Assembly: GCA_902760955.1 (NCBI GenBank)
Contig: CACWIG010000001.1
Coordinates: forward strand, 1 to 64,000
DNA: 64,000 nucleotides
Source of the DNA: an uncultured Ruminococcus sp.
GTDB lineage: Bacteria; Bacillota; Clostridia; Monoglobales; Monoglobaceae
Direction: 5' to 3'
Under the pieces are notes generated by a model. The model saw only the letters and a list, made by a program, of their open reading frames with translations, made no database searches and was not told the origin of the DNA. Position 1 is the first letter of the stretch. Each line of letters starts with the position of its first letter. Of this stretch, positions 14,950 through 37,501 are shown one piece after another. The position numbers and the translations under genes are program-made.

Positions 14950-15073
14950 AAATTTTCACCTCCATTGATTTTAGAAAAAAACAATCGGAGCAGAATTTCA
15001 CCCGCTGATGCGGAATCAGCTTAAAAGTAATTGTGGTTCATAAGCCTGACCCTGCCCCATAAGAACCTTTGCA

Positions 15074-15187
<114 letters not shown>

Positions 15188-15259
15188 TTAATCCTTCACC
15201 TCCTAATTTTGACTCGCCCGATATTTATACATACTACCACATATAAATCGAACTGTATT

Positions 15260-15288
15260 ATCATATCATATTTTTTTCAAGATGTCAA
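15260..15288 (-). promoter_or_regulatory. Promoter of the rpmJ-rpsM-rpsK-rpsD-rpoA-rplQ operon
   Basis: Minus strand TTGACA (15288-15283), 17-bp spacer, TATGAT (15265-15260). The transposon target duplication begins only 8 bp upstream of the -35, so any UP element or upstream read-through has been replaced by transposon DNA. Confidence 0.75.
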
Positions 15289-15295
15289 GCAATTT

Positions 15296-15303
15296 TATTA
15301 AAG
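15296..15303. repeat. Left copy of the 8-bp target-site duplication TATTAAAG
   Basis: TATTAAAG lies directly outside the left inverted repeat and is repeated exactly at 18350-18357 outside the right inverted repeat. Eight bases is the duplication size known for IS1595-family insertion. Confidence 0.88.
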
Positions 15304-15362
15304 CCTATAACTTTATTTTCTGTGGAATAATTTTTTCGTTGAGATTTCACGCAGAAAATTGA
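15304..15362 (+). repeat. Left terminal inverted repeat of the transposon
   Basis: Shares with the right end the blocks CCTATAACT, ATTTTCTGTGGAA and TTTTCGTTGA at identical spacing. That is 32 matches in the first 39 bases, and weaker similarity continues to about base 58. Confidence 0.88.
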
Positions 15363-15370
15363 TTTTTGCA

Positions 15371-15406
15371 TAACAAAAATGGGTAAAGTTCATTACTTTA
15401 CCCATT
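15371..15406 (-). terminator. Terminator of the DUF4180 gene
   Basis: Minus strand AAATGGGTAAAG/CTTTACCCATTT stem with a 6-nt loop, followed by TTGTTATG. It lies just inside the left inverted repeat. Confidence 0.75.
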
Positions 15407-15417
15407 TAGATTAGAGT

Positions 15418-15780
15418 TTATTGTGTCAGCATATTTATTGCATCCTCTTTTGTAGAAACAAAAAACACATTATTTCCGTTGTTACTCTCATATATAAAAT
15501 CTTTAAGCGGTTTGCTTGTGTAGCGGGAGTAATCACCATAAATTGCTATGCGACCACCATAATTGATATATTTTTGTAAAATCTCCCCTGCAAGACCTGT
15601 GCTAAGTATAAAGAAATCTTCTACAATTAACCTTTTATCAATAACAATGTTCTTGGTTCCTATATCATATTTTGCACTCATAAGTATGTCAAGCGCTGAT
15701 TGTGTATCTTCAAAAACCTTTTTCTCACTATTCAACACCGCACATACTACATTATTTTTTTCGATTTTCTCAAATTGCAT
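15418..15780 (-). CDS. DUF4180 family protein (transposon passenger)
   Basis: A 120-aa protein of unknown function. The family signature is clear in its second half: EDFFILSTGLAGEILQKYINYGG, then RIAIYGDYSRYTSKPLKDFIYESNNGN and the VFFVSTKEDAINML end. It has no signal peptide or membrane helix. The start ATG has GAGGAAT 7 nt upstream, a consensus promoter lies at 15882-15910 and a terminator follows. It sits inside the transposon, between the left inverted repeat and the transposase, in the same orientation. It is therefore a passenger or accessory gene. A role in transposition or in protecting the element is possible but not shown by the sequence. Confidence 0.85.
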   Translation of the reverse strand: MQFEKIEKNNVVCAVLNSEKKVFEDTQSALDILMSAKYDIGTKNIVIDKRLIVEDFFILSTGLAGEILQKYINYGGRIAIYGDYSRYTSKPLKDFIYESNNGNNVFFVSTKEDAINMLTQ

Positions 15781-15881
15781 TTCTTATTCCTCACTAAAAT
15801 CCAAGTTCATATATTAAGAAATAAGACTTATTTCCGCAAAATATACAAACAAAGTAACTATATTAATCATTTTCTGCTTAT

Positions 15882-15910
15882 ATTATAACACCTTTTCATA
15901 GTTCAGTCAA
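15882..15910 (-). promoter_or_regulatory. Promoter of the DUF4180 gene
   Basis: Minus strand TTGACT (15910-15905), 17-bp spacer, TATAAT (15887-15882). It leaves a leader of about 95 nt. Confidence 0.75.
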
Positions 15911-16119
15911 TGGGTTTACTGCATTTTTAGCAATGTGCCCTGTTATGGTTATCACCTTCTGGTGGATATCCCCGAAGAAAGTAAAAAACGACACTTATGT
16001 ATATTTGCCCATTAATTTTTCTAAAAACTCTATGCTTTTATGGGGTAAAATCAATAAAAAATATGGGTTCGGAAAATCTTCCGGGAAAAACCGACACCTA
16101 TAAATGACACTTTTGAGAT
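15911..16119. other. Internal transposon spacer
   Basis: This 209-bp stretch between the DUF4180 promoter and the transposase stop has no reading frame I can support. It holds a GGTT-CGGAA/TTCCG-AACC hairpin (16066-16092) and two CGACAC words. The phased octamer array is absent here. Confidence 0.5.
16054..16092 (-). terminator. Possible terminator of the transposase gene
   Basis: Minus strand: nested stems with CGGAA/TTCCG at the core, followed by CATATTTTTTATTG, about 30 bp after the transposase stop. Confidence 0.5.
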
Positions 16120-17754
16120 CTAGTCAAGTTCTTCTGCTTGTTGTATCATAAGTTGTATATCTTCCATAAATTGTGAATGCAAGTGGTCTGCGGCAACAAG
16201 TCCAAGAAAAATGTCATTAACTTGTGGTAATTCACAGATTAACTTTGCCAATCTCTCTTTACTGTCAATGGCAGTATAGCCTTTTATATGGTATTCCTTG
16301 CATATCTGCTTTAACTTTGTTATTCCGCAATTCCTGAAATATTTTCTCTTGTTAAATGTCAAAAGCCTGTCATTCTCGTCAAAAGTAAAGCCCATAATAT
16401 TTGATTTTCTTCTCATTTCTTCCGTCAGTTCTTGCAGATTGTTTATATAATGGGTGGTAGGCTTTACATAATCAAGGATATTCCCAGCCTTTATATCCTC
16501 ACTTCGGTATGCCGTTCCTTTATTTTGCAGTAAGTCAATCAGTATGTTTTCAGCGTCATGTCGGGAGGTGGGGTGTTCTTTGTTGTGGCTAATACTCCAA
16601 TTATGCTTGAATACATACAATGCAAGGTATAAAGGTAAATATACAGTAGCAACACCAGTCAAGTTTTTGTTGATATGTCGCTTTAATTGAATGTGAAAAC
16701 TGTCAATGTTATTCAATGTCAAGTGTTTTTCGGCTTTTAATCTCTCAAACTCTGCAAAACTTAATCTTCCGTAGTTTTCAACTCTGTCAAGCCCTTGTGT
16801 TTGATAATATCTTTTAAGGATTGTTTCTTCTGCCAATTCTCTGCCATTATGCGTTTCTGCCCAGTCCTTTTGCTCTTTTCTAACTATCTTCCTCATATCG
16901 GAAGGTTGTATGTAGTGGGGAATTGCATTATTATCACAATACCGAGTGTAGGCGTCATAATCGTCACTACAAAGGAAGGTTATATCCCCTAAATAATCAC
17001 TAAAATAATCTTCAAGTATTTGAGAACTGCTTTTTCCCAAACCCGACAGAACTGCGGCAACATAGCCATTACTGTCTATTCCCGTAACTACACAAGCAAA
17101 CTCTGGTCCAAAAATCCCAAGCTCGGAGGGTATATGTGTGTTTTCAAGTCGGGGTTTTCTCTCTTTTACTGCGGTTGGTGCAACATTGACTAATTCCATT
17201 GCACCCTTTTGATTTTCCCTGAAATATGTTTCGTCAACTTGAACTACACCAGATAATTTCGGCATTCCGTAGTGTTCTAAAAGGGCTTTTAAGAACTTAT
17301 GTCTGTATAGCAAAATTGTGCCTTCTGAGGTATGCCACCCGTAGTCAACCTCCAAATTACGCCGACAAGCGGATAAGGATAAGCCCATTAAAGTATAGTT
17401 AATAACTGCAATCTGCACAGGTAGGGGGAATGTAGATTTGTCTGCAAAAGAACCTGTCATTATAGTATATGTTTTCCCACATTTTCTGCACTTATATCGG
17501 GTTTTTCCATAATCGTCTAATCCGTGTGGGTAATATAATCGGCTTGTGCAGTAAGGACAAGCAGGTTTTAACCCATATTTGTCAATAAAGATTTCATAAT
17601 CTGTTGGTGGTCGGGTTGGCTTTTTCTCGGGTGGCAAAAAGCCCTTTAACACCCACGCCAAGTCTTCTTTTGACAAGGATTTTAATTCTCTTTTTAATTC
17701 TTTTAACCTTTTATCTATTTTAGGATATTTTTCCATTAATTTCTTTAATTGCAT
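16120..17754 (-). CDS. Long IS1595/ISXO2-like DDE transposase with SAP-like C-terminus
   Basis: A 544-aa transposase, much longer than the roughly 300 aa usual for ISXO2-like proteins. Residues 1-50 are helical and basic. A zinc ribbon uses Cys66, Cys69, Cys89 and Cys92. The catalytic core shows Asp174 (VQVDETYF) and Asp264 (CSDDYDAY). The NNIDSF segment at 348-353 stands where family members usually have NxxExF, so the third acidic residue would be Asp351. About 70 extra residues (about 285-345) lie before it. Residues 477-511 (GITKLKQICKEYHIKGYTA and on to KLICELP) resemble a SAP DNA-binding helix pair. It sits inside the transposon next to the phased TTATAAAA array. AGGGGGTG precedes the ATG. 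Confidence 0.9.
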   Translation of the reverse strand: MQLKKLMEKYPKIDKRLKELKRELKSLSKEDLAWVLKGFLPPEKKPTRPPTDYEIFIDKYGLKPACPYCTSRLYYPHGLDDYGKTRYKCRKCGKTYTIMTGSFADKSTFPLPVQIAVINYTLMGLSLSACRRNLEVDYGWHTSEGTILLYRHKFLKALLEHYGMPKLSGVVQVDETYFRENQKGAMELVNVAPTAVKERKPRLENTHIPSELGIFGPEFACVVTGIDSNGYVAAVLSGLGKSSSQILEDYFSDYLGDITFLCSDDYDAYTRYCDNNAIPHYIQPSDMRKIVRKEQKDWAETHNGRELAEETILKRYYQTQGLDRVENYGRLSFAEFERLKAEKHLTLNNIDSFHIQLKRHINKNLTGVATVYLPLYLALYVFKHNWSISHNKEHPTSRHDAENILIDLLQNKGTAYRSEDIKAGNILDYVKPTTHYINNLQELTEEMRRKSNIMGFTFDENDRLLTFNKRKYFRNCGITKLKQICKEYHIKGYTAIDSKERLAKLICELPQVNDIFLGLVAADHLHSQFMEDIQLMIQQAEELD

Positions 17755-17783
17755 ACCAATACACCCCCTTTTTCGATACTTAT

Positions 17784-17812
17784 ATTATATAAAAGTATGC
17801 AAATATTGTCAA
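17784..17812 (-). promoter_or_regulatory. Promoter of the transposase gene
   Basis: Minus strand TTGACA (17812-17807), 17-bp spacer, TATAAT (17789-17784): a full consensus match. The first array octamer begins 20 bp upstream of the -35, so proteins on the array could touch this promoter. Confidence 0.85.
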
Positions 17813-17832
17813 ATCGGCATTTCTAACAGTTA

Positions 17833-18240
17833 TTATAAAATAACGGACATTTTTTATAAAACATCGGTAACTGTTTATAAAAGGGTAGGACAGAGAATAT
17901 AAAACTCCAGAACTGAAATTATAAAAAATTACGGAAGGAATTATAAAATCTTTATACTGAAATTATAAAACAATCAAGCAATTTTTATAAAATGTCGGCA
18001 TTAGTTTTATAAAAGGTTATTCCTGAAATTATAAAAGGTCTGCGGTAATATTATAAAAATCCGTCTTTAATTTTATAAAAAGTCGGTCAATGATTTATAA
18101 AAGTCTAAATGTTTTTTATAAATCTTCTGCAATCTTTTATAAAAGAGTAGGGATTTTTTATAATCGGTTTTATAAAAAACAAAAGAGATTTTATAAAACT
18201 TTCGACAGATTTTATAAAATCCCTAATATTGTTTATAATA
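17833..18240. repeat. Helically phased array of 20 TTATAAAA octamers
   Basis: Octamers begin at 17833, 17854, 17875, 17897, 17919, 17941, 17963, 17985, 18007, 18029, 18051, 18073, 18095, 18116, 18137, 18158, 18170, 18191, 18212 and 18233. Sixteen are exact TTATAAAA; those at 17897, 18116, 18158 and 18233 differ at one or two bases. Intervals are 21, 21, then ten of 22, then three of 21, one of 12, and three of 21. Spacers of 13-14 bp are all different, usually A/T at the edges and richer in G/C in the middle. The period equals two helical turns, placing every octamer on one face of the DNA. There are no cas genes, and the 22-bp intervals break any reading frame. A cooperative protein-binding site is the best reading. 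Confidence 0.95.
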
Positions 18241-18291
18241 TGTGGAACTTTGCAACACAACCAATTATGCATATAAAAATGCCTTTACAAT

Positions 18292-18349
18292 TCAATTTCT
18301 CTTTGAGATTTCAACGAAAAGTCCGTTCCACAGAAAATCGAGTTATAGG
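18292..18349 (-). repeat. Right terminal inverted repeat of the transposon
   Basis: Read on the minus strand it begins CCTATAACT, then ATTTTCTGTGGAA after two mismatches, then TTTTCGTTGA after five, matching the left end without gaps over 39 bases. It starts 51 bp beyond the last array octamer. Confidence 0.88.
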
Positions 18350-18357
18350 TATTAAAG
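18350..18357. repeat. Right copy of the 8-bp target-site duplication TATTAAAG
   Basis: Exact copy of 15296-15303, directly outside the right inverted repeat. Confidence 0.88.
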
Positions 18358-18434: not shown

Positions 18435-21254
18435 TTATTCAGGCAAAATTACGAAAAGTTTAGCTGAATTCTTATAGAAATAGATGAGAATCTTGCTTGG
18501 TTCTACTCCGTCATCATATGCACTCAATGCATCGATTGCAGAAGTACGCTCGTCACTTGGTATTTCGATAATCTCTAATTCCTTACCTGTGTTATCATAC
18601 TTTAGAACTGTTGCATTGCTAAAGTTCTTAATGTTATAGAGCAGTAAATCTTTTCCGCTATACTCCTCACTGTCTTTTGTAAGTTTTGTAGGAGCTATGG
18701 ATATAGCATCTTCGTCTTTTGCATAAACGCTTCCTATGATTACACCATATTTTGATGACTCATTAATCTTGCCGAATATACCATAATCATTATCTTCGCC
18801 TACACGATAAATGAACTGTGTTCTTTCCTCGTCATCAACAAATGTGGTGTATCCATCAGAATCCGTACCCGCTCTGAATATATCACCCATTGAAAGTGAA
18901 TCAACTAAGCTATCATCAGAGTCTTTCGATACCCACATAGAATCAAATGTACTTGTTGAAGAACTGCTTGTCTTATAGCCTCCCAACTTATACATACTGG
19001 TATCATCATTTGTTGCCTGTGTCTTACTTGTCATAATATATATAGGTGATGACTCCTCTATCTTCTTCGAGCTATCAACTCCGTAAGCTACAACTACCTT
19101 AGGAACATTTACGGCTGAAACATCGAATACTTCTACCATATACTTGCCTGTTGTACTAAACACAGATGATACAGTTGACTTTTTAAAGTTATTATAAACA
19201 CCGTCTTCGGGGACTACAAATACAGTAGCATTACTTAAGTTTACCTTTGTACCATCGTAGGTAATAGTAGAAGTCGAACTGCTATAATCTGACGCAACAT
19301 CCCTTGTAATAGTTGACAAAGTAGTAAGCTTATCTGATACAACTTCGCTGCCCTTGTCAACAGGAGTAGCAGTATAAACCTTATCTAATACAGTTTCACC
19401 GCTTACAGTCTTTGTTGTGTATTTGATTAACTGCTGAACGCCCTCAACACCTGTCTTACCATTGTCTGCAGCAATTCTTAATGCTTCCACTACATCTGTA
19501 CCCTTTGAACAAGGCTCGCCATCAACTGATGTGCTTCTGTATGTTTTGAGGTATTGTGTACTGCCTGCAGAATTTATTATTCTGAATGTAACATCGCCGT
19601 CAAATGATTCTTTGTCCTCTGCATAGGCAACCACATAACCATAATATGTATTTACAGATGTCACATTTTTTGTATACGCAACAACATCTCCGTTCAGGTC
19701 AAGATAATATACACCTGAATCCTGATTCTGAGGAGCTTCATCCAGCTTTCCACCGTTCAACCAAGGTGCCGCATTTGATATATAATAATCTTTGCCTGAT
19801 ATTGTTATTGTGTCGTTCTGAACTGCACTGATTGTTCCTGTAACCTTATCGCTTAATACTATTGCCTTTTTCAACGGAGCAACGCCATTGCTCTTTGTGT
19901 AGCAAATAATATTTCCAACTGCTATTGAACTGAATTCAAGTTCCTTACCATTTTTGTCTACGATTGATAAATTTGAATCAGATGTCTTATCGAGCTTTAA
20001 TGTTTTATTTTCAGCAGGCTGAATTACATTGTCAACAATTTCGTATGAAGTTGATGATTTGCTTGAAACATAATATACATCATAAGCCGTAATATCAATC
20101 ACGTCATATGTTCTGTCATTATCGGAATCAATAAGTTTTACCTGACCGATAAGAGGAATCATACTTACATCAAAACGGCTTGCTCTTCCGTTGTTGCCGT
20201 AGAGCTTACCATTATAGATAACTACGTTATCCGATGAAATATTTGCAATCTTTTCTTTATTGTCATCCTTGTTCAAATAATATTTAATCTGATTGTTAGA
20301 TGAAGTGCCGGTCTCAACATCAGAAGCACTTATAACAAGAGGCTCTGCATCACTTAAGACACACAACGCAATTGTTCTTGTGGAACCCGAAGTTGTGTAG
20401 TAGAAGTCAACCTCATATCCCATATAATTCTTTAAAGTGGTATCTGTTGTTACATATGTATGCAACTCATAGCTATTTGTGTCAGGCTCTTTTGCATAAA
20501 TCATTATCTCGTTCTCACGAAGATTTATATCCTGCGAGTCCATACTTGTTACATCATTTGAGTATATTATACCTGTTGTCTTTTCATAATTTAAGTAGTC
20601 GTTCAAGATTGTTTTGTTTGTAACCTCGTTGTTCTCAACGATTCTAACATCAAGAGAATCGTAAAGAAGCTGTGCAATACAAGCACGGCTTGCAGGTGTT
20701 TCCGCAGCACCGATTTGAGAAGCCACTTTTGTAACACCCTTTTGAGCCGCAATACTGATATAGTTTGCATACCAAGGTGTAACATCCACAGATGTAGTAT
20801 ACCCTAAAGTACACATTATCATCTTAATTGCTTCCTCATATGCAACATTTGCACTCGGCTTAAACGTGCCATCATCATATCCGTTAATAACACCCTTTGC
20901 ATACGCTGTATTAATGTTTGGGATTGCCCAATTATAATCGCCATTATTATCATCAATATCAGTAAACGGCAACTCAGCAGCACTTGTGTTTCCGATTGCC
21001 CCAAGTTTCAGCGTTCTCATAAGCATAGCTGTAAACTCTGCCCTTGTAACATTTTGGTCAGGTCTGAATGTGCTATCCTCATAGCCGTTAATTACGCCCA
21101 TTGCATTTAACGTCTTGACAGCATCATAGTACACACTGTCAGATGTAACATCTGTCAGTTTTCCTGTTGTTGTTTCATCAGCAAAAGCAACAAAGCACGA
21201 CAGTACCATAGCAACTGATAAAACAACACTTATAAAGTGTCTCATTTTTTTCAT
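18435..21254 (-). CDS. SLH-domain surface protein
   Basis: A 939-aa secreted protein. Signal peptide residues 1-25 (MKKMRHFISVVLSVAMVLSC, then cleavage near AFA-DE). Three SLH domains follow at about 30-90, 95-150 and 155-210, with VINGYEDSTFRPDQNVTRAE and VINGYDDGTFKPSANVAYEE; these bind pyruvylated secondary cell-wall polymers. The remaining 700 residues are Ser/Thr/Asp-rich beta-strand-like sequence with no domain I recognise. Length and composition parallel the 987-aa SLH protein at 33.7-36.6 kb, so the two are probably S-layer paralogues. It has its own promoter and terminator. Confidence 0.9.
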   Translation of the reverse strand: MKKMRHFISVVLSVAMVLSCFVAFADETTTGKLTDVTSDSVYYDAVKTLNAMGVINGYEDSTFRPDQNVTRAEFTAMLMRTLKLGAIGNTSAAELPFTDIDDNNGDYNWAIPNINTAYAKGVINGYDDGTFKPSANVAYEEAIKMIMCTLGYTTSVDVTPWYANYISIAAQKGVTKVASQIGAAETPASRACIAQLLYDSLDVRIVENNEVTNKTILNDYLNYEKTTGIIYSNDVTSMDSQDINLRENEIMIYAKEPDTNSYELHTYVTTDTTLKNYMGYEVDFYYTTSGSTRTIALCVLSDAEPLVISASDVETGTSSNNQIKYYLNKDDNKEKIANISSDNVVIYNGKLYGNNGRASRFDVSMIPLIGQVKLIDSDNDRTYDVIDITAYDVYYVSSKSSTSYEIVDNVIQPAENKTLKLDKTSDSNLSIVDKNGKELEFSSIAVGNIICYTKSNGVAPLKKAIVLSDKVTGTISAVQNDTITISGKDYYISNAAPWLNGGKLDEAPQNQDSGVYYLDLNGDVVAYTKNVTSVNTYYGYVVAYAEDKESFDGDVTFRIINSAGSTQYLKTYRSTSVDGEPCSKGTDVVEALRIAADNGKTGVEGVQQLIKYTTKTVSGETVLDKVYTATPVDKGSEVVSDKLTTLSTITRDVASDYSSSTSTITYDGTKVNLSNATVFVVPEDGVYNNFKKSTVSSVFSTTGKYMVEVFDVSAVNVPKVVVAYGVDSSKKIEESSPIYIMTSKTQATNDDTSMYKLGGYKTSSSSTSTFDSMWVSKDSDDSLVDSLSMGDIFRAGTDSDGYTTFVDDEERTQFIYRVGEDNDYGIFGKINESSKYGVIIGSVYAKDEDAISIAPTKLTKDSEEYSGKDLLLYNIKNFSNATVLKYDNTGKELEIIEIPSDERTSAIDALSAYDDGVEPSKILIYFYKNSAKLFVILPE

Positions 21255-32649: not shown

Positions 32650-33215
32650 ATATATTGTAGGGGCGATTCACGAATCGCCCGTTTGTAGTGTCGGCAATAG
32701 CCTCACTTGCGTATTCGTAGGGGACGGCGTCCTCGACGTCCCGCAAGCTCCCTTACGCATCTGTAGGGTTCGGCGTCCTCGACGAACCGCAGGATCCCTT
32801 GCGTATTTGTAGGGGACGGCGTCCTCGACGTCCCGCAAGCTCCCTTACGCATCTGTAGGGTTCGGCGTCCTCGACGAACCGAATACAGTTGCGATTGTAA
32901 TTTACGTTATGCATTAGTGGGAATATATCCGCCAATCCTTCAATCAGCTTTCGCTGACAGTTCCCTCTACGCAAGTGTTACACTTGTGTTGGCAATTTCA
33001 CATATTTGCGGGACGTCGGGGACGCCGTCCCCTACAAAAAGAACAACAATTATTCATTAAAATACTTTGATTTTCGGAACAGCAAACGGGACGTCGAGGA
33101 CGCCGTCCCATACAGATTTTTGGGGCAATAATTTAATGAAATTATTTTGAATTCATATATTACGGGGTATTCCGATTGGTTTTCGGCAGGAGCAAGCCCC
33201 TGCCCTACAATGCGT

Positions 33216-37046: not shown

Positions 37047-37430
37047 CGGCGGGAGCAAGCCCCCGCCCTACGACGGCGGCAATGAAACCAAATATGCCTT
37101 CGGACAACAAATTCAAAATAATTTTTCATTGCATTCGGGCTTGGCGAATGTATGGGCGAAGGGCAATTAATCAAATAAAATTATTTTGAATTTTGTGTAT
37201 CGTTCGGCAGGAGCAAGCCCCTGCCCTACAACATTATGTAATATGTTTCAGGGTATCTCTGACAAACGGGCGATTCGTGAATCGCCCCTACAAATATTCA
37301 GGAGAGCTTGCGGGACGTCGAGGACGGCGTCCCCTACAAATACGCAACGGATCTTCCGGGACGTCGAGGACGCCGAACACTACAAATACGCAGGAGAGCC
37401 TGCGGGACGCCGAGGACGCCGTCCCCGACA
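37047..37430. repeat. Repeat cluster 2, between the large SLH gene and ispG
   Basis: A second mosaic with the same families as cluster 1: GC-palindromes at 37047 and 37205, the GATTC palindrome at 37267, GACGTC-type palindromes at 37311, 37357 and 37403 separated by CTACAAATACGCA-like linkers, and a reversed 85-bp element at 37109-37193. Together with cluster 1 it brackets the SLH gene with homologous DNA. Confidence 0.9.
37109..37193 (-). repeat. 85-bp inverted-end element, copy 3 (reversed)
   Basis: Reverse complement of copy 1 over almost its full length, including the GGCTTGGCGAATGTATGGGC middle. Confidence 0.85.
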
Positions 37431-37501
37431 AATACGCAAGGGAGCCTATATATTAAGGAAGAGATTTGGTTGTAACAAAAAAATAATTAATTAAATATAG
37501 C

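Follow-up and report, generated by a model that had tools for sequence, protein, structure and literature searches.

The locus analysed here raises the question of what use a transposon might make of twenty phased octamers placed between its transposase promoter and one of its ends. In the window, that is, the whole stretch of 64,000 nucleotides from an uncultured Ruminococcus sp. that was analysed, positions 17833-18240 carry 20 octamers, 16 of them exact, at steps of 21 or 22 bp and with a single 12-bp step. The octamers start at 17833, 17854, 17875, 17897 and 17919, then every 22 bp up to 18095, and further at 18116, 18137, 18158 (TTATAATC), 18170 (after the 12-bp step), 18191, 18212 and 18233; this recount of starts bears out the number, period and single slip given in an earlier, sequence-only reading of the locus. 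The promoter-side block (17833-18165) comprises 16 octamers TTATAAAA at 21/22-bp steps, the tip-side block (18170-18240) comprises four and is mostly kept in one group of non-autonomous derivatives, and the 12-bp slip with the sequence TTATAATCGGTTTTATAAAA (18158-18177) is retained in relatives of 47-49% identity. The longest unbroken 21/22-bp run contains nine exact units, whereas such runs never held more than one exact unit in third-order Markov simulations of the window (n = 60), or more than two in sequences simulated with the composition of the array (n = 2,000). No match to known RNA families was obtained.

All spacers of the array differ, as had been claimed earlier, with a mean identity of 0.35 and only a weak positional bias (0.294 versus 0.252 expected, p = 0.0005). 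Because their mean identity is this low, the array is not a plain tandem repeat, in which the whole unit would be conserved; here the octamers are conserved and the spacers drift. The placement of all octamers on one face of the DNA, also claimed earlier, requires a helical repeat of about 10.85-10.9 bp (Rayleigh R 0.88); at 10.5 bp per turn R is 0.44, and the octamers rotate progressively around the helix along the extended run of 22-bp steps.

Mapping of the ends confirmed that the array lies within a transposon, between the transposase promoter and the right inverted repeat. The element spans 15304-18349 (3,046 bp), with inverted repeats of about 61 bp and an 8-bp target duplication, TATTAAAG, present on either side at 15296-15303 and 18350-18357; the inverted repeat and the target duplication together prove the left end at 15304. 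The left repeat (15304-15364, plus strand, tip CCTATAACTTTATTTTCTGTGG) was recognised by repeat pairing and pattern match, has the same tip in the complete copies L158 and L163, and pairs with the right repeat (18289-18349, tip CCTATAACTCGATTTTCTGTGG on the minus strand). Only two proteins are encoded, both on the minus strand: a passenger DUF4180 protein of 120 aa (15418-15780; Pfam PF13788, E 1e-37) and an IS1595-type transposase of 544 aa (16120-17754; NCBIfam NF033547, E 2e-22, together with structure comparison). The transposase promoter, on the same strand (17784-17812), is a perfect sigma-70-type TTGACA-N17-TATAAT with 12/12 matches. A single copy of the transposase is present in the available contigs of the incomplete source genome, and contig 5 carries a transposase-less derivative with the same ends. 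The element is located directly upstream of a putative rpmJ (window 15052-15303) within a ribosomal protein cluster of rpsM, rpsK, rpsD, rpoA and rplQ, and an S-layer-like gene (18435-21254) occupies its other flank.

The element can be assigned to the IS1595 family by its transposase profile and its 8-bp target duplication. The transposase scores 80 bits against NF033547, the IS1595 profile, at a cut-off of 75, and its match to the Pfam IS1595 domain falls below that domain's own cut-off. An N-terminal zinc ribbon is followed by a putative DDE-type core and a C-terminal SAP/Rho_N-like domain, the latter a weak assignment with Z scores of 5.4-5.9 against SAP/Rho_N folds in structure comparison, below the level at which such a match stands alone. 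Members of this fold class can bind AT-rich DNA. The motifs DE(T/C)xFRExQKG, C(S/T)D and (D/N)S(F/L)H..L were lined up by eye with the published DDE/DDN pattern, in a core modelled at low confidence, and the predicted fold of the whole transposase (pLDDT 63, low confidence) gave no strong structural match. The transposase profile, zinc ribbon, 8-bp duplication and passenger gene are shared with the IS1595 family, including its members with passenger genes; however, the element's transposase is twice as long and has the C-terminal domain, its inverted repeats are long, and the array is not reported for the family in the literature searched. ISApl4, from the same family, likewise has an 8-bp target duplication, and its tips read GGGGCTGT.., compared with CCTATAAC.. 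in the element.

A transposase search in 391 Clostridia genomes recovered near-identical copies (~96%) in other families as well as more distant ones, and L158, L163 and L090, which are complete copies inserted elsewhere, are each flanked by a perfect 8-bp duplication. The passenger genes in the left-end slot vary between lineages while the transposase does not, and the slot is, as far as its gene content tells, an exchangeable cargo site. Its contents (window 15418-15780; L163, L090, L054, L157, L197, L199) include DUF4180, lipoprotein-like, zinc-finger, XRE regulator and other genes. The left end had been described as lacking a counterpart of the array, and indeed no left-end array was found in the window element, L158, L163 or L090; the description does not extend, however, to a relative of 47-48% identity, L134, a complete element of 4,661 bp with an 8-9 bp duplication (TTTAGCCG/T), which carries arrays of 10 and 11 units at its two ends in inverted orientation. 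Natural variants of the array include forms with 20, 5, 2 and 0 units, and both one-ended and two-ended forms.

A search with the right end turned up numerous elements that have these ends and no transposase. One group of them keeps 2-6 tip-side octamers and the other has an end of about 52 bp with no octamer array; perfect target duplications are present in both groups. In L201, L202, L203, L206, L209 and L212, for instance, the ends are the same and the target duplications perfect, yet there is no array; the array is therefore not needed for mobilization in trans. The array-less, non-autonomous elements (these six and L207) occur in several Clostridia families, and most have a DUF559-like second gene. 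L164, a complete relative of 36% identity with target duplications and a passenger gene, also has no array, and array-less relatives carry the same transposase C-terminal domain. End recognition had been among the functions suggested earlier for the array; a strict need for it there is not supported, in view both of the non-autonomous elements, which have the same 52-bp ends, perfect target duplications and no array, and of L164. Array-less homologous transposons, which the sequence-only reading had itself named as evidence against its proposal, thus exist (L164 and the non-autonomous elements), but within the transposase clade the array is conserved, and it is present in a sister clade as well. 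Array-bearing and array-less transposases separate with full support in a tree of few sequences with long branches.

Among eight aligned copies of the array, the variable columns amount to 10/160 in octamers (6%) and 79/248 in spacers (32%; Fisher p 1e-10 for octamers versus spacers), with 4/61 (7%) in the inverted repeat, and the length differences between copies are whole units. The octamers are, judging from this alignment, under purifying selection. In nearly all elements that carry an array, the outermost octamer begins 117 bp inside the tip (117-119 bp in all complete array-bearing ends), and the steps across these ends are of 21 bp (103), 22 bp (61), 12 bp (20) and 20 bp (2), with no others. 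At the opposite side, a distance of exactly 20 bp separates the first octamer from the -35 box, both in the window and in L014 and L160, two relatives with transposases 47-49% identical to that of the window. The array is, by these comparisons, clade-specific and in a fixed geometry with tip and promoter. Conserved octamers, the tip and promoter register and the two-ended relative together argue for selected subterminal sites coupled to the promoter, and the array is a selected trait shared by long IS1595-type transposons of one clade, apparently undescribed in that family. No earlier description of TTTTATAAAA repeats or of such transposon arrays was found in the open part of PubMed Central, in agreement with the earlier statement that no described insertion sequence is known to have such an array.

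It is plausible, with a probability of about one half, that the octamers form a subterminal array of putative protein-binding sites to which the transposase binds, pairing the ends and regulating its own promoter. The octamers are probably docking sites for a protein, through which transposition would be tied to self-control, and this putative binder is most likely the transposase, as it is the sole element-encoded protein common to all copies. The transposase would bind the octamers, possibly via its C-terminal SAP-like domain, and several copies of the protein would assemble cooperatively into a filament that extends from the end in the direction of the promoter. End pairing would be assisted by the tip-side sites, as in IS1535 (discussed below), and those near the promoter would serve to repress or meter the amount of transposase made. 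The two-ended inverted arrays of L134, the 117-bp and 20-bp registers and the constancy of the transposase beside varying passengers count in favour of this explanation, whereas the mobility of array-less elements and the lack of an array in L164 despite the same C-terminal domain count against it. The array makes it testable how a bacterial DDE transposon might use a long series of regularly spaced sites to couple end pairing to transcriptional self-control, and the natural variants, with their different unit numbers and one or two arrayed ends, are usable for such a test. As the element family shuttles exchangeable passengers among gut Clostridia, its control bears on gene flow there.

Several known systems resemble the array in part. 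The ends of Tn7 and phage Mu carry several transposase sites of about 22 bp in an asymmetric arrangement, few in number and each conserved over most of its length, whereas merely 8 bp of each 21-22 are conserved in the element. The phased subterminal repeats of IS1535 may be regarded as the closest analogue. TnpA of this IS607-family element attaches at one end to direct repeats that are subterminal and in helical phase, and captures a second end that is naked (PMC6188088). The left end of IS1535 and the array share short phased subterminal direct repeats that are asymmetric between ends, while the cooperative binding and the one-ended filament by which the second end is captured belong to IS1535 (PMC6188088); a similar capture of a naked end would fit a one-ended array. 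However, IS1535 uses a serine transposase, lacks both inverted repeats and a target duplication, and has four 9-bp motifs 20-60 bp from the end, in contrast to the putative DDE-type transposase and the 2-20 octamers extending from 117 bp inside the tip to the promoter. The IS1595-type transposase, 61-bp inverted repeats and 8-bp duplication place the element outside IS607. Transposons of the hAT and piggyBac type, such as piggyBat, also have several transposase sites inside their ends (PMC11707139), and in piggyBat extra subterminal sites can restrict activity (PMC11707139), but these elements are eukaryotic, belong to other transposase classes and have few sites with no uniform two-turn phasing.

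When species genomes were scanned without bias for three octamers in phase, at least 117 stretches were returned. Among the matches listed, arrays that reach seven units and have a spacer identity under 0.5 all belong to this transposon family, most other long arrays are tandem repeats, and many five-unit arrays are iteron-like and lie beside Rep genes. The long Bacteroidota arrays L034, L041, L103 and L119 proved to be ordinary tandem repeats. The phased pattern was present in 16/371 Clostridia genomes. A genome search of arrays against the transposase had been proposed earlier, and its outcome is divided: the association holds for the long arrays among the matches listed but is not exclusive, since short TTTTATAAAA arrays are also found beside serine-recombinase genes and as iteron-like arrays of plasmids. 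The short arrays next to recombinase genes have unrelated spacers and are intergenic beside small serine recombinases, in some cases accompanied by a tyrosine integrase or by a large serine recombinase; examples by serine-recombinase genes are L038 5768-5858, L046 5821-5914, L072 7350-7443, L118 1043-1180, L128 2393-2464, L023 4019-4068, L086 6184-6233 and L062 1929-2080. At L045 2730-3080, some 17 TTTTATAAAA-like units form a less strict array, with a large serine recombinase on one side and a DUF262-like gene on the other. The occurrence of similar short arrays near unrelated recombinase genes suggests another binder and counts against binding by the transposase.

Because short arrays of this kind also occur beside serine-recombinase genes in other elements of Clostridia, a host factor may be shared among them. 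Under this explanation, which we consider less likely than binding by the transposase, a Clostridia host protein recognises phased TTTTATAAAA sites, and unrelated mobile elements placed such sites at recombinase genes for silencing or control. The same palindromic motif at 20-22 bp spacing occurs within 340 bp of 10/13 serine-recombinase frames present in the 117 loci listed, although these loci had also supplied the seed for the recombinase profile; moreover, the motif is common to different recombinase chemistries, and the reversed control pattern was found in 0/371 genomes. However, an array is present at only 1/16 loci of the recombinase's close relatives, and it was thus ruled out as a fixed feature of small serine recombinases. 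The 117-bp tip register and the both-end arrays of L134 better fit an end-binding protein of the element, and no candidate host protein is known. It is rather unlikely that phased TTTTATAAAA arrays are the recognition code of one Clostridia protein, which DDE transposons and serine or tyrosine recombinase elements would use to control both recombinase genes and ends.

A purely transcriptional role, as an operator or upstream promoter region with no part in the transposition reaction, appears doubtful. It would agree with the perfect promoter at a fixed 20-bp distance, with the restriction of long arrays to elements with the transposase gene and with the movement of array-less elements, but it leaves unexplained why one transposase-less group keeps 2-6 tip-side units, why the transposase-distal end of L134 carries an array, and why the distance to the tip is fixed.

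Sites for resolution (res-like) or replication (iteron-like), served in trans by a serine recombinase or a Rep protein, are very improbable in spite of the similar motif spacing near small serine recombinases and Rep genes. Rep_3-type plasmid iterons likewise have 21-22 bp steps, and some in Bacteroidota plasmids share the TTATAAAA core; however, the whole repeat is usually conserved in these, in 4-7 units beside a rep gene, whereas the element has no adjacent replication initiator gene and no complete copy contains a recombinase or Rep gene. No phage or plasmid homologues of the array were found, and those of the transposase have only about 23-28% identity. Intrinsic curvature from phased A-tracts, which AT-rich octamers about two helical turns apart might have produced, is hardly credible, as predicted curvature does not exceed that of dinucleotide shuffles (end-to-end ratio 0.826 versus 0.722, sd 0.131), so that static bending is not supported, and the motif consists of a T-tract, TA steps and then an A-tract. 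A functionless, degenerate tandem repeat left by slippage, for which whole-unit copy-number changes, the weak residual spacer similarity and true tandem repeats with the same motif in Bacteroidota could be cited, can be dismissed with similar assurance, because the octamers are as conserved as the inverted repeat while the spacers drift, and spacing, slip and anchor distances are conserved across a clade of about 50% identity. Elsewhere in the window, two arrays of a 46-bp GC-rich repeat occur at 32706-32881 and 37285-37445 in roughly inverted orientation.
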